Source: Streptobacillus felis (GTDB lineage: Bacteria; Fusobacteriota; Fusobacteriia; Fusobacteriales; Leptotrichiaceae). Taken from it: DNA of 36,691 nucleotides. The notes beneath the pieces are model-generated. The model was not told where the DNA came from, searched no databases, and saw only the letters and a list, made by a program, of their open reading frames with translations. Shown here one piece after another: positions 169-12,438 of the stretch. Within the stretch, counting starts at the first letter, position 1. Each line of letters begins with the position of its first letter. The stretch lies in the NCBI RefSeq assembly GCF_001559775.1, contig NZ_LOHX01000012.1, forward strand, positions 1-36,691, given 5' to 3'. The position numbers and the translations under genes are program-made.

Positions 169-477
169 TTGGATAATAAAAATAAAAGAATTTATCTTCA
201 ATCTTACGATAACAAGTTATTAGATCAAACTTCTGCTAAAATAGTAGAAGTGGTAAAGAAAAATGGTGCTAAAATTGCGGGACCAATGCCTTTACCAACT
301 AAAACTAAAAAATATACAGTTTTAAGATCAGTACATGTTAATAAAGATTCAAGAGAACAATTTGAAATGAGAATACATAGAAGATTCATTGAAATCAAGG
401 AATCAAACAATGATATTTTAACAGCTTTAAGCTCAATAAGCTTACCAGCAGGTGTTTCAATAGAAATAAAGCAATAG
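169..477 (+). CDS. rpsJ: 30S ribosomal protein S10
   Basis: Full-length S10 (102 residues, the family's normal size), a small-subunit head protein that in some bacteria also serves as NusE in antitermination. The family motifs are clear: LKAYD-like YLQSYDNKLLDQ near the N-terminus, GPMPLPTKTKKYTVLRS around residues 38-54, and the basic MRIHRRFIEI stretch at about 67-76. The start is a TTG at 169-171, placed 7 bases after a strong GAGGAGG (155-161); no ATG fits the family length. Only about 50 bases separate it from tuf, so it is probably co-transcribed with the str genes. Confidence 0.96.
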   Translation: MDNKNKRIYLQSYDNKLLDQTSAKIVEVVKKNGAKIAGPMPLPTKTKKYTVLRSVHVNKDSREQFEMRIHRRFIEIKESNNDILTALSSISLPAGVSIEIKQ

Positions 478-490
478 TGCTTTGATACAA

Positions 491-517
491 GTTGGTAGAG
501 CTTCGAGCTCTATCAAC
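491..517 (+). promoter_or_regulatory. Intercistronic hairpin between rpsJ and rplC
   Basis: GTTGGTAGAGC (491-501) pairs with GCTCTATCAAC (507-517), 11 bp with one G-U, around a 5-base loop. No T-run follows, so it is not a normal terminator. It ends 9 bases before the Shine-Dalgarno AAGGAGG (527-533) of rplC. It may be an RNA-stability or processing element, or a site that adjusts rplC translation; the role is inference. Confidence 0.6.
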
Positions 518-539
518 CAATATATTAAGGAGGAAAGAA

Positions 540-1166
540 ATGATATTAGGTAAAAAAATTGGAATGACACAAATTTTTGAAAACGAAAAATTAATACCAG
601 TTACAGTAATTGAAGCTGGACCAAACTTTGTTGTTCAAACTAAAACAGTAGAAAAAGAAGGTTACACTTCAATAACTTTAGCTTATGATGAAAAAAGAGA
701 AAAATTAGTTAACAAACCAGAAATGGGTGTTTTCAAAAAAGCCGGAATCACAGCTAAAAAATTCTTAAAAGAGTTTAAAGTAGAATCAAGTGAAGAATTT
801 GCTTTAGGTCAAGAATTAAAAGTTGATGTATTAGAAGGTATTGAATTCGTTGATATTCAAGGAATCTCAAAAGGTAAAGGAACTGCAGGGGTTATGAAAA
901 GACATAACTTCGGTGGAAACAGAGCTACACACGGGGTTTCAAGAAACCACAGACTTGGAGGGTCAAATGCAGGTGGAGCTGCATCTAACTCAAATGTACC
1001 AAAAGGTAAAAAGATGGCTGGAAGATTAGGAAATGAAAATGTAACAGTTCAAAATCTAAAAGTAATCAAATTCGATGTTGAAAATAACTTATTATTAGTT
1101 AAAGGTGCAGTACCAGGTCCTAAAAATGGTTATTTAGTTATCAAGAAATCAGTAAAAAAATACTAA
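540..1166 (+). CDS. rplC: 50S ribosomal protein L3
   Basis: L3 nucleates assembly of the large subunit, and its long loop reaches toward the peptidyl transferase centre. The ATG at 540 follows AAGGAGG (527-533) and gives 208 residues starting MILGKKIGMTQIFE, the family N-terminus; the frame stays open upstream to 492 but those codons look non-coding. GKGTAGVMKRHNFGGNRATHGVSRNHR and KGKKMAGRLGN... VKGAVPG mark the core and C-terminus. The loop at residues 140-155 is odd: GGSNAGGAASNSNVPKGKK replaces the common GSIG...PG(K/R)V(F/L)KGKK and looks one residue longer. See the separate finding. Confidence 0.96.
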   Translation: MILGKKIGMTQIFENEKLIPVTVIEAGPNFVVQTKTVEKEGYTSITLAYDEKREKLVNKPEMGVFKKAGITAKKFLKEFKVESSEEFALGQELKVDVLEGIEFVDIQGISKGKGTAGVMKRHNFGGNRATHGVSRNHRLGGSNAGGAASNSNVPKGKKMAGRLGNENVTVQNLKVIKFDVENNLLLVKGAVPGPKNGYLVIKKSVKKY

Positions 1167-1186
1167 TATAGAGAGAGGAGGCAAAG

Positions 1187-1831
1187 ATGTCAGATTTTAA
1201 TTTAAAAGTATATAATTTAAATGGTGAAGAAAAAGGAGTAGCTACTATAAGTGGTGAAATCTTTGGATTAGAACCTAATAAATATGTAATGCATGAAGTA
1301 TTAACAGCAGAACTTGCAGCATCACGTGCAGGAACTGCATCAACAAAAACTAGAGGAGAAGTATCTGGAGGAGGAAGAAAACCTTTCAGACAAAAAGGAA
1401 CAGGACGTGCTAGACAAGGATCAACAAGAGCACCTCATATGGTAGGTGGAGGAGTTGTTCACGGACCTAAACCAAGAAATTATGAGAAAAAAGTTAACAA
1501 AAAAGTTAGAAAGTTAGCTTTAAAATCAGCATTAGCTGTTAGAATCCAAAATGGAGATGTAATTGTATTAGAAGACTACATGTTAGATGCTCCTAAAACA
1601 AAAACATTTGTTAATTTTACAGAAAAAGTTAATATGGTAGAAGACAAAAAATTATTTATAGTTAACGATTATTTAGAAGATGCTGATTGGAACTTATACT
1701 TATCAGTTAGAAATATCGAAAAAACTGAAATATTAGACCCAAGAGAGTTATCAGTATATGCTTTATTAAAATACAATAAAGTAGTTATTACTAAAGAAGC
1801 TCTTGCAACTATCGAGGAGGTGCTTGGATAA
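1187..1831 (+). CDS. rplD: 50S ribosomal protein L4
   Basis: L4 (214 residues, about 5-10 longer than typical) lines the polypeptide exit tunnel and binds 23S rRNA early in assembly. The tunnel-loop signature is present at about residues 45-90: [20 protein letters not shown] followed by [22 protein letters not shown]. The ATG follows GAGAGGAGG with normal spacing. The stop codon shares its last A (1831) with the ATG of rplW, so the two are probably translationally coupled. In enterobacteria L4 represses this operon; no L4-binding leader can be judged here because the operon start is outside the window. Confidence 0.96.
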
Positions 1832-2115
1832 TGACAATTTTTGACGTAATCAAAAAACCTGTTTTAAATACAGAAAAAGCAAGAATTTTATTGAATTCAA
1901 ATGAATATGTATTTATAGTAGATAGAAGAGCTAATAAATTACAAATTAAAGAAGCAGTAGAGAAATTATTCAATGTTAAAGTTGCAAATGTTAACACTAT
2001 TAACATGAAACCAACTACGGCTAGAGCAAGAATGACTGTTTACAAAACACCGGCATACAAAAAAGCCATTGTTAAATTAGTAGATGGAGATTCAATAAAA
2101 GCTTATGATATTTAG
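1831..2115 (+). CDS. rplW: 50S ribosomal protein L23
   Basis: L23 (94 residues, normal length) sits at the tunnel exit and docks trigger factor and SRP. Seen motifs: VIKKPVLNTEKA at the N-terminus, NEYVFIVDRRANKLQIKEAV in the middle and VNTINMKPTTARA at about residues 54-66. The Shine-Dalgarno GAGGAGG (1814-1820) lies inside the end of rplD, and start and stop overlap by one base. Oddly, it is followed by a terminator and unrelated genes rather than by rplB, so it is the last gene of a shortened S10 operon here. Confidence 0.96.
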   Translation: MTIFDVIKKPVLNTEKARILLNSNEYVFIVDRRANKLQIKEAVEKLFNVKVANVNTINMKPTTARARMTVYKTPAYKKAIVKLVDGDSIKAYDI

Positions 2116-2183: not shown

Positions 2184-2936
2184 ATGGAATTTAAAAATAA
2201 GACTTGTATTGTTACAGGTGGTGCTAATGGTATAGGGCTTGAAACTGTAAAAGGTATGGTTGCAGGTGGTGCAAAAGTAATAATACTAGATATAAATGAA
2301 GAAGCAGCTAAAAGTGCTATAAATGAATTAGGTGAAGATAGAGTATTCTTTCATTATTTAGACTTATCAAATCAAGAAAGTATAAGAAGTGTTTTTGCAG
2401 AACTTATACAAAAATACAATAAAATTGATGTATTAGTAAACTGTGCTGGAATTATTAGTACTAAGAGATTTGATGATTTAGATGATGCAGAATTTAATAA
2501 AGTAGTAAGTATAAACTTAAATGCAAACTTTACAACTATTTCAGCTATATTTGAACATTTTAAATCAAATGGTGGAGGAAGAATTGTAAATGTTTCATCT
2601 GTTGCTGCAAAGCTTGGCGGAGGTCTTTTAGGGACTGCAGCATATGCATCTTCAAAAGCAGGATTAAATGGTTTAACTAAGGCAGTAGCTAAAGAAGGTG
2701 GAAAATATGGAATAGCATGTAACTGTGTTTGTCCTTCATACACTGAAACTGAAATGACTAATGCATTAAAAGAGGATAAAGAGAAAGAAAGTAAGGTTAT
2801 TTCTATGATACCTTTAGGTAGAAAAGCACAAGCAAGAGAAATTGCACAAATGATACTATTTTTTGCATCTGATCTTGCAAGTTTTGTAACAGGAGAAATA
2901 GGAGATGTAGATGGAGGTATTACATTAGATGGCTGA
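2184..2936 (+). CDS. Short-chain dehydrogenase/reductase, KduD/FabG-like
   Basis: A cytoplasmic NAD(P)-dependent oxidoreductase of the classical SDR family (250 residues, normal length). Seen: the nucleotide-binding TGGANGIG at residues 11-18, NCAG in place of NNAG at 86-89, the Ser pair at 138-139, and the catalytic YASSK with Tyr154 and Lys158; there are two extra residues between Ser and Tyr compared with FabG. The substrate cannot be read from the sequence. The next gene, overlapping by 8 bases, is a 2-keto-3-deoxygluconate permease, which suggests a sugar-acid role such as that of KduD (2-dehydro-3-deoxy-gluconate 5-dehydrogenase). A fatty-acid FabG role is less likely. TGGAGGA at 2174-2180 sets the start. 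Confidence 0.85.
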   Translation: MEFKNKTCIVTGGANGIGLETVKGMVAGGAKVIILDINEEAAKSAINELGEDRVFFHYLDLSNQESIRSVFAELIQKYNKIDVLVNCAGIISTKRFDDLDDAEFNKVVSINLNANFTTISAIFEHFKSNGGGRIVNVSSVAAKLGGGLLGTAAYASSKAGLNGLTKAVAKEGGKYGIACNCVCPSYTETEMTNALKEDKEKESKVISMIPLGRKAQAREIAQMILFFASDLASFVTGEIGDVDGGITLDG

Positions 2937-3879
2937 TAAAAATTTAGATACAATATTCGGTAAATATTTTTCAAAAATACCTGGAAATATGATAGTAGTT
3001 CCTTTAATTATTGGAACTTTAATAAATAGTTTTTTCCCACAAGTTTTACAAATTGGGTCATTCACTACAGCTATAGTTAAAGGTGTAGGTCCACTAGTTG
3101 GTGCATTCTTACTATTTTTAGGGGGAACTATTTCTTTAAAGTCTACTCCTAAATCTATAGTTAGAGGATTTGTAATTATTACTACTAAGGTTTTAGTTGC
3201 AGTAGCATTAGGATTAGTAGTAGCAAAAGTATTTAATAATAACTTTTTAGGTTTAAGTGCAGTTGCTGTTATAGGTGCAATATCTGTTGCAAATAATGCA
3301 CTGTTTGCAGGAATTACATCAGTCTATGGAGATGAAATTGAAAGAGGAGCAGTTGCTATTACATCTTTAAGTGTAGGACCAACTGTTACTATGATAGCTT
3401 TAACTTCAGCAGGACTTGCAAGTATTTCCCCACTTGCTATTTTAGGGTCTATAGTACCTTTAATTTTAGGTATAATACTTTCAAATTATTCACCTTTCCT
3501 TAAGCAGTTATTTACTAAAGGATTAGGTGCAACTACAGTACTTGTTGGTTTTGCTCTAGGTGCAAATATGAGTTTATCTCAAATATTTAAAGGAGGATTA
3601 CCAGGTATCTTATTAGGGTTAATAGCTGTGTTTGTAGTTGGTATTATTACAGTTATTATGGATAAATTAACTGGAGGTAGTGGTATAGCTGGGGCATCAA
3701 TTTCATCAGTTGCAGCTAGTGCAATCGCCAATCCAGAGGCTCTAGCAAAAGCAGATCCTAATCTTGCAATATTCCAAGATGCAGCTACGGCACAAATTGC
3801 TGCAGCAGTTATAATTACAGCATTATTAACACCTGTATTTACCTCACTAGTTAAAAAATATAACGAGAAAAAAGGATAA
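2929..3879 (+). CDS. kdgT: 2-keto-3-deoxygluconate permease family transporter
   Basis: A KdgT-family inner-membrane permease (316 residues, close to the family's 310-330) that would import 2-keto-3-deoxygluconate with protons. It is almost wholly hydrophobic with about ten membrane segments. The run PGNMIVVPLIIGTLINSFFP near the N-terminus and the small-residue-rich centre AISVANNALFAGITSVYGDE are typical. Its ATG lies inside the end of the dehydrogenase gene (8-base overlap), so the two are translationally coupled. No KDG kinase or aldolase is in the window, so the downstream steps must be encoded elsewhere. Confidence 0.85.
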   Translation: MADKNLDTIFGKYFSKIPGNMIVVPLIIGTLINSFFPQVLQIGSFTTAIVKGVGPLVGAFLLFLGGTISLKSTPKSIVRGFVIITTKVLVAVALGLVVAKVFNNNFLGLSAVAVIGAISVANNALFAGITSVYGDEIERGAVAITSLSVGPTVTMIALTSAGLASISPLAILGSIVPLILGIILSNYSPFLKQLFTKGLGATTVLVGFALGANMSLSQIFKGGLPGILLGLIAVFVVGIITVIMDKLTGGSGIAGASISSVAASAIANPEALAKADPNLAIFQDAATAQIAAAVIITALLTPVFTSLVKKYNEKKG

Positions 3880-5319: not shown

Positions 5320-5348
5320 TTGACAATAATAAAAAAATGTACTAGAAT
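5320..5348 (+). promoter_or_regulatory. Sigma-70-type promoter of the type Va autotransporter
   Basis: TTGACA (5320-5325), a 17-base spacer and TAGAAT (5343-5348) form a near-consensus promoter. The predicted start lies about 30 bases before the ATG at 5382, after which GGAAGGA at 5371-5378 is the ribosome site. Confidence 0.8.
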
Positions 5349-5381: not shown

Positions 5382-8336
5382 ATGGAGAAAATATCAAACA
5401 TAAAAAGATATTTAAAAAGAAAAATTAGTGTTACAAATGCTTTACTTGTAACTTTTCTGATTACAGGAACTTTTTCTACTGCTGGAACAATAGCAGAGGC
5501 ACAAAATCAAATTAATACAGATAATAAAGTAGTTGCAGGGACTTATGAAGGAGAAAATAACTATAATTTTGTTACAACAAAAAATGATACTATATTAGAG
5601 GGAGATATTACTTTTAACATCAAAGAAACTGGAAATGAAGCATTTTTGTCTTTAAATGGGACAGGAGTAACAGGTGATAAAGTTACAATTAATATTACAC
5701 CTAATACAGGGGTTCAACATTCAAGACCTAAGGGTGTAATAATTAGAGGAAATGCAAATGCTGAAATAAAAGAATTAATTTCAAATGTAACTTTAGCTTC
5801 TGAAACAAAAAATTCACCTTCAAATGGTCCAGATTCAAATGCTTCTTATGGTGTTGCAGTTGGATATAATTTTGGTGGTGGAACATCAAGTGATACTTCA
5901 AAATTAACAGTAGATAAGATGACTGTTAATGTAACTAATACAGCAGATACAATAATGGCAAAAAGAACAGCATCAAGAAGTTTTTGGGGTATTAATATAA
6001 CAGCAGAAGTAGATTTTGGACATCAATTATCAGGATTAAAAGTATATAGAAAAGATGGTGCAAAAGCAGAATTTATTGCAAATGATAAAGTAGATATTAC
6101 AGTAACAGACTCATCTACAGCAAAAGTTGGAGATTACTTAGTAGGTGTTTTTATTTCAGGTAATGAAACAAAAGCAGAATTTAATGGAGAAACTAATATT
6201 ACTTTAGTAGGAGATGGAGTAAATTCTGCAGCTATTAAAATAGGAAAACCATTTGATGGAACTATAACATCAGAAGGTCCAAGAGTAACTGTAAATGGAA
6301 AATTAAATGTTGATACAACTGCTAATACATTATCGGGTGCAGTTAGATTATTTGGTGATAAATCTAAGCTTGAAGTTACTGGTGAAGAAGAATCTGTAAT
6401 AAATTCAGGTAATTCTGCTATAGTATATGATACTCAGGATTATATTACTAAATTTAAAACTAATTTAGGTATAAATGGAGAAACTTCACGTAATATTAAT
6501 GGTAATGATCAAGTAGTTAAATTAAATAATACAGTTTTAAAAACTACAAGTAATGATGCTTCTTTAATTAAAGTAAGAGCTGAAAGAGTAAGAGATATTA
6601 CTGCGGGAGAAGCAAGTAGAATGTCAGGAGGTCAATTAAACTCAGGAGAATTCTCAAATAATAATGCAATTTTTGAATTATCTGGAGATAAATCAGTTGC
6701 TAAAGCTGCAAGTGATGGTTGGTTAATTGAAGTTAAAGGAACTAAAACAATTTCATCTTCATTAACTGCAAATATTAAAGATTCAGCTGTTATTGAAGGA
6801 TTAACTGATAAGAAGTTTTCTTCAAAATTAGATATTAATTTAGAAAATGAAGGTAAATGGATACTTGCTAATAAAGGTTCTGAAAATAAAGCAACATTTA
6901 ATAATTTAAATATTACTAATGGTATATTAGATGCAACTAATGCTGATTTTGTATTAAAAGCAACTACAAATGGTGTAGAAGAAAACGGAACTGTTACAAA
7001 TGCAGGAAAGATAACAATAGATAATGATAGATACACTGATAAATTACTATTAAATGGTAATTATACAGGAAATAATGGTAAATTATTAGTAAATACGTTA
7101 TGGAATGAAACTAGTGGTAAAAATGGAGAAAATTCAGAATCTGATTTATTTGAAATAACAGGTGAAGTTAGTGGAACAACTAAAGTAATTACTGTTGCTA
7201 AAGATAAAACAGAAAATAAAATAGATGGAACAGTAGATGGAGAAGAAGGAAATAGAAGTGCTATAGTTGTTAAAACACCTAAAGCAACATCTGCAAATGC
7301 ATTTATTGGAACAGCTGTCACTGAAAATGATGCTGAATTAGAATTAGTTTCAGAAATACAAGATGAACATAGAGTATTCTTCTGGGAAATTACTAAATCA
7401 GGTCCAGACATATTCTTAATAGGACCTAAGGCAAATATGGATCAAGCACATCATGTATTTGGTCGTTTAAATGAAAGACGTATACAAAATACTTTATTTA
7501 ATATAGGTAAAAATACTGAAAAAGGAATGCCATGGGCTAAACTTTATGGTGGAGAATTCATATATGATAATTCTAATAAAACACGTTACATGGATGGAAC
7601 AATAGGAATAAATATAGGTGTAGATCATTATTTTGATAAAAATAAAGAAAATTTAACAGGTATTTATTTTGGTTACTCAAATTCATTTAAAAATGTTGTA
7701 AATAATAGAACAAGTGCATATAGAGGTACTGTGCATACAGATATGGTTTCGTTAGGTTTAACAAATACATATACTAGAGATAAATTTTATGCAGATGCTG
7801 TATTACAATTATCAGGTCTTGAAAATAGATATGTATTAAAAAATGGAGATAAATATAATAATTTTGGTGTGATATTAACTGGATCACTTGAACTTGGTAG
7901 CCCGTTATACTTTGTAAATAATAAAGAAAAGGATGAAAAGTATATAGTTGAACCTCAAGCACAAGTTATTTATCAATTTTCAGCTAATACACCAATAGCA
8001 GAGAAAAATATAAGCTATGATTTAGGACATTCAGTTAAAGGTAGAGCAGGATTAAGAGTTGGATATTCAACTGCAATGAGTACAACAGCTAAAAATGGAA
8101 TGGGATATGCTTTATTTAATGTTTGGGGACAATATACAAATGCCGATAAAGTAAACAAAGGAGAAAAAGTTTATACTGAAACTTATCCAACTATTTGGTT
8201 AGAAGCAGGACTTGGAGCAAATTTACCTGTAACTAAAAATGTAAGTACATACTTTGAAGCTACTTTAGAAAAATCAGTTTATGGAAGTAATAAATATGGT
8301 GGAAAAGGTACATTTGGAATAAATTTTGAAAAATAA
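5382..8336 (+). CDS. Type Va autotransporter with fusobacterial N-terminal domain
   Basis: A secreted surface protein of 984 residues that carries its own outer-membrane pore. Residues 1-41 are an extended signal peptide: a charged lead with RYLKRK, then a hydrophobic core ending near GTIAEA. Residues 42 to about 685 are a Thr/Asn/Ser-rich passenger with short beta-strand-like periodicity, consistent with a beta-helix; I see no protease triad or known enzymatic motif. From about residue 690 (HHVFGRLNERRIQNTLFNIG) to the C-terminus is a 12-strand autotransporter barrel, with GMPWAKLYGGEF at about 715-726 and the end GGKGTFGINFEK. Cysteine is absent, as usual for exported passengers. It has its own promoter and terminator, so it is monocistronic. 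A role in adhesion is inferred from family, not shown. Confidence 0.9.
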   Translation: MEKISNIKRYLKRKISVTNALLVTFLITGTFSTAGTIAEAQNQINTDNKVVAGTYEGENNYNFVTTKNDTILEGDITFNIKETGNEAFLSLNGTGVTGDKVTINITPNTGVQHSRPKGVIIRGNANAEIKELISNVTLASETKNSPSNGPDSNASYGVAVGYNFGGGTSSDTSKLTVDKMTVNVTNTADTIMAKRTASRSFWGINITAEVDFGHQLSGLKVYRKDGAKAEFIANDKVDITVTDSSTAKVGDYLVGVFISGNETKAEFNGETNITLVGDGVNSAAIKIGKPFDGTITSEGPRVTVNGKLNVDTTANTLSGAVRLFGDKSKLEVTGEEESVINSGNSAIVYDTQDYITKFKTNLGINGETSRNINGNDQVVKLNNTVLKTTSNDASLIKVRAERVRDITAGEASRMSGGQLNSGEFSNNNAIFELSGDKSVAKAASDGWLIEVKGTKTISSSLTANIKDSAVIEGLTDKKFSSKLDINLENEGKWILANKGSENKATFNNLNITNGILDATNADFVLKATTNGVEENGTVTNAGKITIDNDRYTDKLLLNGNYTGNNGKLLVNTLWNETSGKNGENSESDLFEITGEVSGTTKVITVAKDKTENKIDGTVDGEEGNRSAIVVKTPKATSANAFIGTAVTENDAELELVSEIQDEHRVFFWEITKSGPDIFLIGPKANMDQAHHVFGRLNERRIQNTLFNIGKNTEKGMPWAKLYGGEFIYDNSNKTRYMDGTIGINIGVDHYFDKNKENLTGIYFGYSNSFKNVVNNRTSAYRGTVHTDMVSLGLTNTYTRDKFYADAVLQLSGLENRYVLKNGDKYNNFGVILTGSLELGSPLYFVNNKEKDEKYIVEPQAQVIYQFSANTPIAEKNISYDLGHSVKGRAGLRVGYSTAMSTTAKNGMGYALFNVWGQYTNADKVNKGEKVYTETYPTIWLEAGLGANLPVTKNVSTYFEATLEKSVYGSNKYGGKGTFGINFEK

Positions 8337-8341
8337 TAATT

Positions 8342-8374
8342 GAAAAAGGTGGAATTATTTCCATCTTTTTCTTT
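8342..8374 (+). terminator. Terminator of the type Va autotransporter gene
   Basis: GAAAAAGGTGGAA (8342-8354) pairs with TTCCATCTTTTTC (8359-8371), 13 bp with one G-U and a 4-base loop; T-rich sequence follows in and after the stem. Confidence 0.82.
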
Positions 8375-8401: not shown

Positions 8402-8432
8402 TTGATAAAAACAGTCGGGGGGGGGGTATAAT
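8402..8432 (+). promoter_or_regulatory. Poly-G promoter of the trimeric adhesin, probably phase-variable
   Basis: TTGATA (8402-8407) and a perfect TATAAT (8427-8432) are separated by 19 bases, of which ten are an unbroken G run touching the -10 box. The best spacing is about 17, so the 10-G form seen here should be weak, and loss of one or two G should strengthen it. The adhesin's ribosome site AGAAAGGA (8453-8460) and ATG (8470) follow directly. The layout matches known promoter-spacer homopolymer switches (opc, porA in Neisseria), but switching here is an inference. Confidence 0.75.
8417..8426 (+). repeat. Homopolymer tract of ten G
   Basis: Ten consecutive G in a region that is otherwise almost all A and T. 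It is the longest G run I found on either strand (the next is six, at 4790-4795). Such tracts change length by slipped-strand mispairing, so the count may differ between cells and may also be uncertain in the assembly. Confidence 0.95.
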
Positions 8433-8469
8433 ATATAGAAATAAAAAAATTTAGAAAGGAATGGTGTGA

Positions 8470-11400
8470 ATGAGTATTTTTGAAAAAATGAGATATTTGA
8501 AATCTCGTTTAAAAACACAAAAAAATATTACTATTGGAGTTGTTATTGCTTACTTAATGCTTGGTTTTGCGGCTTTCGGAGCAACAGCAGATTATGTTTC
8601 TATAAATTCTGATGCAAATGGGAATAGACAAAGTGAGGGAGCAACAGCTACGAATGCAATAGCGATAGGACCATCTGCTACAGCTACTGGTGAAAGTTCT
8701 CTAGCTGTTGGGGATACTGCAAATGCTAGTAAGTATGCAAGTGCATTTGGTTCATTATCAAAAGCTACAGGAGAAGGAGCACTTGCATTAGGTAATACAT
8801 CAAATGCATCAGGCCAAAATGCTACATCTATAGGTGTTCAAGCAAATTCATCAGGAATTCAATCAAATGCTATAGGGGCACTTAGTAATGCAAGTGGCCA
8901 AAATGCAACAGCAATAGGGGTGCAATCAAAGTCTGAAGGTGTTCAATCAAATGCTATAGGTACTCTTAGTAATGCAGCAGGGATTAATGACATAGCGATA
9001 GGTACACAAAGTAATGCAATAGGAAAAAATTCGATTGCAATAGGTTATCAGTCGAACTCAAAAAGTTCTAGTGCAGTTTCAATAGGGAATAAAGCAGTTT
9101 CTCATGCAACTTATTCTACAACTTTAGGTTCTACAGCAAATACTCATGGTGGATATGCTACAGCTGTAGGTTCTTATGCTTCTGGATTATCTGATGGTAC
9201 AACTTCATTTGGTAGTAGAAGTAGAGCAGCTGGATATAGAGCAACTGCCTTAGGTTCATATGCAGATTCTAAAGGTCATGAATCTATAGCTATAGGAGAT
9301 GCAGCAAGGTCAGAAAAAGCAGATTCAATTGCTATAGGTCGTGGTTCAAAATCGGAGGTAATATCTGGTGTTGCCCTAGGTGCAGAATCTGTTGCTAAAG
9401 TTGATTCAGGAATGTTTGGTTTTGATTTAGATAAAGGTGGTGTTTTAACAAGTGTTTCAGATATTTCTACCCTAACAGATGCTGAAAAAGCAAGAGCATT
9501 AGAACTTGAAGCTAATGTGAATAATCTTAAAACAGAATTTGAAACTAAAGATCAAGAATATATGAATAGATTATTTACACTACATGGAGAATTAGTAAAG
9601 GCAAGAAATGCAAATGATACAGCCAAGGTTAGTGAATTATTAGCAGAAAGAGCTTTACTTGAAAGAGCTGTTACGTCTGCTAGAATGAATTACTATTCAA
9701 ATGCAGAGGTAAAAGAATACAATAAATTAGTTGGAACATGGAAATCAACATTATCTGCTGTTTCTATAGGAGATAAAGAAGAAGGATTAACAAGACAGAT
9801 TAATAATTTAGCTGCAGGTACAGAAGATACAGATGCTGTAAATGTAGCACAACTTAAATCAATAAACCTAAAGGTAACAGGAGATAATTTAGCAAATGAT
9901 GCAACTGCAATAGGTAAGGTAAGATTACATGATCAAAAATTAGCTATTAATGGAACTAGTGGTGAAATTACTACTACAGTTGCAAAAGATGGACAAACAG
10001 TAATAATTTCACTTGCAGATGAAATTAAGAATAAAGTAAATGCAATGAAATATTTTTCTGTTAAATCAACTTTAGCAGGAAATAGTCAAAATAATGGTGC
10101 AAGTGGAGAAAATTCTATAGCCATAGGACCAAATGCTAATTCAACTGTAAAAGATGGAGTTGCATTAGGTAATGGAGCAAGTGTTAATAATGCACAAGGT
10201 ACTCCAGGGACTTCAGGTATAGCTATAGGTACAGGTGCACAATCACATCAAATGAGTTCAGCTATGCATGAAGTATTAGTTAGATTTAAGAGAACTAAAG
10301 ATAAAATGACAGGTGGTATAGCAATAGGGACACAAACTCATGCTAGAATTTCAACTATAGATATAGGAAATAGGGACTATGTTGGAAGAATTGGTGATAT
10401 TGAATTTAATAAAAATGGTGTAGATAGTTGGAATAGTATAAGTGGAGTTGGAGCAACAACAGTTGGGGATAATTCAATAAATACTTCTAATTTCTCTACT
10501 ATTAATGGTTCATTTAATACTATAACTAATTCTCAAAGAAATGGGAATCAATTTCATAATTTAGCTAAAGCAATGCAAGGATTTGGAGCATCAATAATAG
10601 GAAGTTTAAATAGTATAGAAGGAAATGAAGATTTAGTAGGAAGTGGTACAGGTAGATTAGATCAAATACTTGTGGCATTAGGATCAAAACATCCAGCAAC
10701 TGGATTGATGTATAGTGGAACAGCATCAAATGCTATAGGATTTGCAAATAAAATAAGTAAAAGTAATGGAGCACTAATTTATGGAGCAGGAAATGAAATA
10801 ACAAATTCATACTTAACTCCATCTGGAGCGAATGAAATTACGAAATTAGTGGGAGCATCATTCTTAGATTCTAATAATACAGGTGTTGAAATAAAAGAAT
10901 TAGCAGATTCATTTAGAAAATACATGGGTAATGCAAGACTTGGTTCTGTAGGAGTTATTGGTGGAGCAAATAAAGTTGACTATGCACTTTTCTCAACTGT
11001 TAATGGTGTAGGAAATGAGTTAAAAGGTAAAGGAAATATTACTTTAAGTGAAACTAATACTACAATGTCTCAAGTTACAAAAAATGGTAGTGCGTTTGCA
11101 ATCTTTAATCAAATAACAGGTTATGAAAATAAGGCAACAAATGTTTCTAATTTAATGTTAACTGGAAGTAAAAATGTTGTAGAACATGCAAGTAATAATA
11201 TAGTTACGGGAAATAACCATTCTATAAAAGGAACTGAAACTGAAATTGCTGAGGGTAATGTAGTAATTGGATTTAATAAAAATAAATCTGATTCTAATTT
11301 TAAAGCATCAGCTAAAAATATTGTAGCTATAGGAAATGATATAGTTGCAACTCAAGATGATTCTGTATACTTAGGAAATGGAAGTAAAGATGCTGCGGCT

Positions 11401-12438
11401 GCAAATACTAAGGCTATGGATACTTATTCAACTGATACAATTAATGGAATTACACTTAATTTTGCAGGTGGAACTCCAACTGGATTAGTTTCAGTAGGTT
11501 CTGAAGGAAAAGAAAGAAGAATACAAAATGTTGCTTCTGGATGGATTTCAGCAACAAGTACAGACGCTATTAATGGGTCACAACTTTATTCTGTAATAGA
11601 TAAATTTAATTCAAAATTATCTGAATCTCCAAAAATAAATGTAGTTGGAAGTGGTAATGTTACAGTTAATCCTGAGGAAAAAGATGGGACTAAGACATTT
11701 ACAGTGGGTATTTCAGAAGGAAGTATAACATCAGCTAAAGGAGGAAATGCAAGTATAAATAAAGATGGTGTAGTTACAGCTACAACAGTTATTAATGCTA
11801 TCAATGCTTTAGGAAATAATACTATTAGTTTTTCAGGAAATACTGGAAATACAGATTCACAAAATTTAAATAAAGAAAATGGAATTACTTTTGGAATTAA
11901 AGGAAAAGGTTTAGTAACAACAGAAGCAAATGGAAATGAAATATTAATAGATTTAACTGATGAAACAAAAGAAAAGATTAATAATATAGAAAAAGGAGCT
12001 AAATCAGCTTCAACTGCAGCTAATGCAGGAGTAGCAAGTGCAGTAGCTATGGCTAACTTACCACAAGTAAGCAATATAGCAGGACATAGACATAATATTG
12101 CAGGAGCATATGGATACTATAACGGAGAACATGCATTTGCATTAGGATTATCAGGATTAAATGAAACAGGAAACTTAGTATATAAGGCAAGTGGATCATT
12201 AAATACTAAAGGACATGTAGCATTAGGAGCAGGACTTGGATATCAATTTGACAAATTAGAATCAAGAAGAAAAGATATGTTAACATTACAAAGAAATGGA
12301 AATATTAACTTACTTGATGAAAAAGTATACGAACTTGATATGGAAGTTAAACAATTAAAAGCTGAAAATAAGGAAAATAAAGAAATGATTAAATTATTAC
12401 TTGAAAGAGTAGAAAAGTTGGAGAAGGGGCAAAAATAG
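8470..12438 (+). CDS. YadA-like trimeric autotransporter adhesin
   Basis: A type Vc surface adhesin of 1322 residues. Residues 1 to about 40 are an extended signal peptide (RYLKSRLK, then a hydrophobic core ending AAFGATA). Residues about 63-317 are a YadA head of many 14-residue repeats built on (N/S)xAIG and AxGLxS-like units. About 335-424 is a charged, heptad-like coiled-coil segment, then a neck (DTDAVNVAQLKSI, about 454). A second, looser head runs from about 548. A HIM/neck motif, RRIQNVASGW...TDAINGSQLYSV, is at about 1016-1043, and the YadA anchor at about 1170-1260 (ANLPQVSNIAGHRHNIAGA ... GAGLGYQF). Unlike YadA it does not end there: 62 more residues form a charged coiled coil. It is a single-gene unit between a poly-G promoter and its own terminator. 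Confidence 0.94.
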   Translation: MSIFEKMRYLKSRLKTQKNITIGVVIAYLMLGFAAFGATADYVSINSDANGNRQSEGATATNAIAIGPSATATGESSLAVGDTANASKYASAFGSLSKATGEGALALGNTSNASGQNATSIGVQANSSGIQSNAIGALSNASGQNATAIGVQSKSEGVQSNAIGTLSNAAGINDIAIGTQSNAIGKNSIAIGYQSNSKSSSAVSIGNKAVSHATYSTTLGSTANTHGGYATAVGSYASGLSDGTTSFGSRSRAAGYRATALGSYADSKGHESIAIGDAARSEKADSIAIGRGSKSEVISGVALGAESVAKVDSGMFGFDLDKGGVLTSVSDISTLTDAEKARALELEANVNNLKTEFETKDQEYMNRLFTLHGELVKARNANDTAKVSELLAERALLERAVTSARMNYYSNAEVKEYNKLVGTWKSTLSAVSIGDKEEGLTRQINNLAAGTEDTDAVNVAQLKSINLKVTGDNLANDATAIGKVRLHDQKLAINGTSGEITTTVAKDGQTVIISLADEIKNKVNAMKYFSVKSTLAGNSQNNGASGENSIAIGPNANSTVKDGVALGNGASVNNAQGTPGTSGIAIGTGAQSHQMSSAMHEVLVRFKRTKDKMTGGIAIGTQTHARISTIDIGNRDYVGRIGDIEFNKNGVDSWNSISGVGATTVGDNSINTSNFSTINGSFNTITNSQRNGNQFHNLAKAMQGFGASIIGSLNSIEGNEDLVGSGTGRLDQILVALGSKHPATGLMYSGTASNAIGFANKISKSNGALIYGAGNEITNSYLTPSGANEITKLVGASFLDSNNTGVEIKELADSFRKYMGNARLGSVGVIGGANKVDYALFSTVNGVGNELKGKGNITLSETNTTMSQVTKNGSAFAIFNQITGYENKATNVSNLMLTGSKNVVEHASNNIVTGNNHSIKGTETEIAEGNVVIGFNKNKSDSNFKASAKNIVAIGNDIVATQDDSVYLGNGSKDAAAANTKAMDTYSTDTINGITLNFAGGTPTGLVSVGSEGKERRIQNVASGWISATSTDAINGSQLYSVIDKFNSKLSESPKINVVGSGNVTVNPEEKDGTKTFTVGISEGSITSAKGGNASINKDGVVTATTVINAINALGNNTISFSGNTGNTDSQNLNKENGITFGIKGKGLVTTEANGNEILIDLTDETKEKINNIEKGAKSASTAANAGVASAVAMANLPQVSNIAGHRHNIAGAYGYYNGEHAFALGLSGLNETGNLVYKASGSLNTKGHVALGAGLGYQFDKLESRRKDMLTLQRNGNINLLDEKVYELDMEVKQLKAENKENKEMIKLLLERVEKLEKGQK

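Follow-up and report, generated by a model that had tools for sequence, protein, structure and literature searches.

RNA polymerase has its optimum near a 17-nt spacer between the -35 and -10 boxes, and in Mycoplasma hyorhinis the Vlp surface proteins form a family in which each promoter spacer carries a homopolymer. In Treponema pallidum, the promoter of tp0126, which encodes an OmpW homologue, has a poly-G tract between -35 and -10 whose length varies within isolates, with an optimum at 17 nt, and tprE, tprG, tprJ, and tprL likewise have varying poly-G tracts in outer-membrane-protein promoters (PMC7864442). The porA promoter of Neisseria meningitidis, as summarized from van der Ende 1995 in PMC7864442, also has poly-G between -35 and -10, and the spacing sets transcription. 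Two other neisserial genes share control of surface-protein transcription by repeat length but do not use spacer poly-G: the poly-C of opc overlaps the -35 box (PMC7864442), and nadA has a TAAA repeat that acts with a repressor and distal promoter elements.

The window analyzed here is the whole stretch of 36,691 nucleotides that makes up positions 1 to 36,691 of Streptobacillus felis contig NZ_LOHX01000012.1. Members of the genus Streptobacillus are agents of rat-bite fever and colonize the mouths of rodents and cats; to our knowledge, their persistence and surface variation have been little studied. An earlier note on this DNA had reported TTGATA and TATAAT 19 bases apart with ten G between them, and had called the gene behind them a large trimeric adhesin. 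Direct reading of positions 8402-8432 confirmed the promoter layout, and YadA head, stalk, and anchor domains bore out the identity of the gene. The features of the locus are as follows:

5320..5348, + strand: promoter of the upstream gene, for comparison, with TTGACA, a 17-nt spacer without a G run, and TAGAAT (found by eye)
5382..8336, + strand: upstream surface-protein-like gene, 984 aa, with its own promoter without a G run (ORF list, domain search)
8342..8371, + strand: intrinsic terminator of the upstream gene, with a 13-bp stem, 4-nt loop, and T-rich tail
8402..8407, + strand: -35 hexamer TTGATA, a single mismatch from TTGACA (direct reading, genus comparison)
8408..8426, + strand: promoter spacer, 19 nt, nine non-G bases followed by the G tract (direct reading)
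8417..8426, + strand: G10 homopolymer on the coding strand, adjoining the -10 box, the proposed slippage tract (sequence reading, run counts)
8427..8432, + strand: -10 hexamer TATAAT (sequence reading; identical in 55 of 74 genus sites)
8453..8460, + strand: Shine-Dalgarno-like AGAAAGGA (found by eye)
8470..12438, + strand: trimeric autotransporter adhesin, 1322 aa, with YadA head repeats, stalk, and anchor (ORF and domain search)

The adhesin ATG was read at 8470, downstream of AGAAAGGA, and transcription is predicted to start, probably, near 8439. Domain searches matched the YadA head (E-value 9.5e-31), stalk (6.1e-15), and anchor (2.3e-10), with PF03895 at 40.8 bits against a cut-off of 22.7 and PF05658 and PF05662 also matched; the protein thus combines a C-terminal anchor with head and stalk repeats, as type Vc (YadA-type) proteins do. 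The 984-aa upstream protein had a weak, below-cut-off match to a fusobacterial autotransporter-associated N-terminal domain. The terminator between the two genes was the one found there against 0.0 in shuffles (-19 kcal/mol, z -7.15), indicating that the adhesin is isolated from the upstream gene and relies on its own promoter. As sequenced, with TTGATA and a 19-nt spacer, that promoter should be weak.

The adhesin is flanked by genes for a symporter and a PRD regulator, which in S. moniliformis are neighbors with no adhesin between them; the adhesin is therefore a lineage-specific insertion. No ortholog of the window promoter was present at the corresponding S. moniliformis position, and none was found in the sister genomes. 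Elsewhere in the window (169-2115, 2184-3879), metabolic and surface genes come immediately after the ribosomal S10 cluster (S10, L3, L4, L23). Compared with S. moniliformis, in which L23 has the symporter gene as its immediate downstream neighbor, the region contains an inserted SDR dehydrogenase gene and an inserted KdgT permease gene. DNA identity between the two species was about 80-82% over long blocks, with one block at 87% and the ribosomal genes at 95%; the published ANI is 82% (PMC4529157).

The earlier note had held a ten-G run to be very unlikely by chance. On length alone this did not stand: first-order base statistics of the window give about 0.24 expected runs of at least 10 and about 5 runs of at least 8 per genome, so that some G10 in the S. 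felis genome is only moderately unlikely. Position and recurrence did uphold it. Within the window, no G/C run of at least 8 was present besides the G10 (three overlapping matches; shuffle mean 0.14). A genome-wide scan for such runs in promoters, which the note had proposed, was then run on the S. felis draft (1,598,094 bases, 349 contigs), and exactly two runs of at least 8 were recovered, both G10. The second is again a promoter spacer, TTGACA-N8-G10-TATAAT with 18 nt between the boxes (C302:14823; L007:4824-4833), before a gene of 857 aa that weakly matches the YadA anchor and appears trimeric-autotransporter-like. Both runs abut TATAAT and both precede YadA-type surface genes, and with the genus-wide recurrence described below this makes chance alone an insufficient explanation.

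We compared four Streptobacillus genomes: S. felis, S. moniliformis (type strain chromosome of 1,662,578 bp, complete; PMC3035246), S. notomytis AHL 370-1, and a fourth, G003. In this order, G7-TATAAT matched 2, 19, 19, and 11 times (51 in total), as against 0, 1, 0, and 0 times for the reversed control pattern. The fuller pattern TTGACA-N(4-12)-G7-TATA[AC]T matched 1, 23, 18, and 14 times and was found in only 6 of 94 other Fusobacteriota genomes, with one to three matches each; controls were zero everywhere. When all 38 S. moniliformis G runs of at least 9 were read, 34 proved to be promoter spacers with at most one mismatch per box. Genus-wide, 74 of the 82 G runs examined in the four genomes qualified, a count in which the G003 set is biased by having been picked partly via the TATAAT match, while those of S. 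felis, S. moniliformis, and nearly all of S. notomytis are not. In the drafts, many poly-G promoters were situated no more than about 1.2 kb from a contig end (S. notomytis C64, C236, C255, C265, and C422), so counts in draft genomes, including that of S. felis, may be too low. Over 400 kb sampled from S. moniliformis, the longest ordinary runs were 7 for G/C and 10 for A/T, despite a GC content of 27%. All 38 long S. moniliformis runs pointed along replication, compared to 85% of genes (p=0.003, with the origin assumed near base 1 and clustered loci treated as independent). Deposited homopolymer lengths can deviate from those in culture (PMC9187656), which raises the question of an assembly or sequencing artefact; with the same module at dozens of loci in four independent assemblies, one of them a finished chromosome, and the reversed control nearly absent, we give that explanation practically no weight and rejected it, confining the uncertainty to exact tract lengths.

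The 74 poly-G promoters were uniform in design. The -35 box was an exact TTGACA in 73, the exception being the TTGATA of the window; 55 of the -10 boxes were TATAAT and 15 were TATACT. G number ranged from 7 to 13 and the spacer from 15 to 22 nt, with a mode of 18-19. The tract was always on the coding strand and contacted the -10 box in 68 of 74 sites, a strictness that would suit a static element in which the G run serves as a regulator site, a supercoiling-sensitive spacer, or a G-rich structure rather than as an unstable length. We find such a fixed role very improbable, as length covers the range 7-13, G runs are absent from ordinary promoters, and G number is the fast-changing part where the flanks are 96-99% identical.

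The genes downstream belong to six secreted or outer-membrane families: trimeric autotransporters (26 genes), GPRYRLEG proteins of about 180 aa (22), classical autotransporters of about 860 aa with PF03797 (8), DYYDLIINQRLSVITG proteins of about 180 aa (7), AEYYV proteins of about 680 aa (6), and a pair of proteins of about 480 aa. A hydrophobic N-terminal segment was present in 63 of 71 downstream genes, compared to 99 of 282 background ORFs (p=7e-17). At three other S. moniliformis or S. notomytis loci (L199, L219, L220), long G runs apparently fall within the beginning of the sequence that encodes the signal peptide of surface proteins rather than in spacers; these are probably translational frameshift switches, some of them in the GPRYRLEG family. 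At a further locus (L231), a G9 immediately precedes the start codon.

Tract length differed between related promoters. Among 13 pairs in which both 60-nt flanks were at least 80% identical, mostly pairs between sister species, G number differed in nine. In such related promoters with nearly identical flanks, the -35 and -10 hexamers were both conserved. At one set of related sites in S. moniliformis (L188), S. notomytis (L212), and G003 (L237), the tracts had 11, 10, and 10 G while 59-60 of 60 flank bases were equal, and two paralogues in one genome (L189 and L195) had 9 and 11. Poly-G spacers also averaged longer (18.4 against 16.9 nt) and were more widely spread than the spacers of G-free promoters from the same genome (p=4e-5), although the G-free set, TTGAC[AT]...TATA[AC]T promoters clustering at 16-18 nt, was small (n=17). 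A tendency of the non-G spacer bases to offset differences in G number was no more than a trend (permutation p=0.06). Should the active range be 16-18 nt, roughly half of the promoters would have been in a strong state when sequenced and the other half would have had spacers of 19 nt or more, which would fit random switches. MutS was present in all four genomes; loss of mismatch repair as the source of instability was thus not supported, and any slippage must escape repair.

Several promoters were mosaic, with one flank in common, the other not, and the break at the tract. The clearest was in G003 (L244:3343), where the 150 nt before the break had 99% identity to the region upstream of one S. 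moniliformis adhesin and the 150 nt after it had 100% identity to the downstream region belonging to the adhesin that comes next in the S. moniliformis array, a pattern consistent with loss of the intervening gene by recombination at the promoter modules. Other mosaics were L177/L183, L200/L201, and L225/L228. These breaks would be expected if TTGACA...G(n)TATAAT acts mainly as a short homology through which surface genes are swapped, deleted, or duplicated, with length switching secondary. That account leaves unexplained both the differences in G number where the two flanks are conserved and the -10/-35 geometry; we consider it quite unlikely as the primary explanation, and it is compatible with phase variation rather than exclusive of it.

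The position of S. felis within the genus requires separate consideration. This genome retains two long tracts and two G7 tracts, compared to 11-23 or more in its sisters. Its other adhesin promoters include the two with G7 (C101) and several in which the tract is interrupted (such as GGTGGGAGAGGG, C289:1474 region) or missing, and these interrupted or absent tracts indicate that the system is eroding or shrinking in S. felis, where most tracts have been lost. Alone among the 74 in lacking a consensus -35, the window promoter may be less active than related ones and is perhaps itself eroding. Taken further, the genus-wide system would be real while S. felis is losing it, leaving the window copy as a permanently weak or dead relic. 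We regard this as unlikely, if still the most plausible of the alternatives: an unselected tract would be expected to be interrupted, like that at C289, but the window tract is a pure G10 like those of the sister species, and the full 1322-aa reading frame of the adhesin is preserved, in a transcription unit of its own that the terminator sets apart. A different YadA-type gene, behind a G7 promoter on the - strand (C101 of S. felis, about 24000, L298), is cut short by an in-frame stop codon close to its beginning and is a probable pseudogene in this assembly.

The promoter anatomy, its recurrence, the classes of gene downstream, the G-number differences between conserved flanks, and the mosaic promoters were all read directly from the genomes. 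Given the recurrence and the differences among related promoters, the proposal of the earlier note, phase variation at the promoter level through spacer length, is the best-supported reading, and we infer the switching itself from these patterns. We judge it highly probable that the window promoter belongs to a Streptobacillus-wide poly-G set subject to spacing-dependent transcriptional phase variation by slipped-strand mispairing. Under this mechanism, the G10 would be the variable part of a sigma-70-type promoter, and slipped-strand mispairing during replication would add or remove single Gs at the tract. Each change would shift the distance and the helical phase between -35 and -10, raising or lowering transcription of the trimeric adhesin reversibly, randomly, and cell by cell. 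A tract of 8 or 9 G (spacer of 17-18 nt) would be expected to be stronger than the sequenced 19-nt state. In S. moniliformis, about 34-36 poly-G promoters would each control one secreted or outer-membrane protein, and a population would show many random surface combinations. Slippage in culture, an effect on transcription, and a benefit in the form of surface bet-hedging are what the sequence patterns would predict.

Among the analogues that the earlier note had named (opc, porA, and nadA), only porA, with its spacer poly-G, proved apt; the -35 overlap of opc and the TAAA repeat and repressor of nadA set those two apart. Like porA and tp0126, the Streptobacillus promoters have a homopolymer between recognizable boxes, a surface-exposed product, and a length that differs among related copies. 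The set thus fits the structural pattern of these two systems, and by analogy its transcription would depend on spacer length. porA is nonetheless one gene of an unrelated protein class and lineage. The M. hyorhinis Vlp system differs in using poly-A rather than poly-G, in encoding lipoproteins, and in having far fewer genes. The T. pallidum set is also smaller, compared to about 34-36 Streptobacillus promoters of uniform design, with near-perfect TTGACA and TATAAT boxes, that serve six multigene families. It is the number of promoters, their uniform design, the six surface families, and the signs of recombination that distinguish the Streptobacillus set from known systems. A search of the non-subscription literature for Streptobacillus phase variation, poly-G tracts, or repeats found no description of this system, which may be new. 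An MLVA paper on S. moniliformis describes three VNTRs with units of 3-36 nt and mentions neither phase variation nor homopolymers (PMC5093955).

If true, genus-wide poly-G promoters would explain surface diversity within a culture, would allow that diversity to be measured directly from existing reads, and would advise caution against reliance on single surface antigens in serology. The set would also offer a clean natural series, with identical boxes and spacers of 15-22 nt at dozens of promoters, for relating spacer length to promoter strength, and the architecture recurs in unrelated gut bacteria. We lean slightly toward a broader proposal, that of a single-design promoter phasome: about 35 TTGACA-N(6-9)-G(9-13)-TATAAT promoters, which account for almost all long G runs of the genome, would make much of the variable surface proteome stochastic and would also act as a recombination joint that moves or deletes surface genes, with comparable promoters ahead of secreted proteins having emerged in many Bacilli and Clostridia of the gut that are unrelated.

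Some observations were made outside Streptobacillus. In genomes of another genus of the same family (G011-G019; L250-L260), there were a few G7+-TATAAT sites, mostly with a different AT-rich upstream motif and often without TTGACA; some lay before small secreted-looking proteins. Promoters of the form TTGA...G8+...TATAAT were seen in many unrelated gut- or host-associated bacteria (L054-L171), including Anaeroplasmataceae and other Bacilli MAGs, Clostridia, Borkfalkia, Saccharibacteria, Faecalibacterium, and Streptococcus suis. In 14 genomes chosen from those matches, G8-TATAAT occurred 1-15 times and the reversed control almost never, and many of the ORFs behind G8+ promoters in the unrelated bacteria start with signal-peptide-like sequences.
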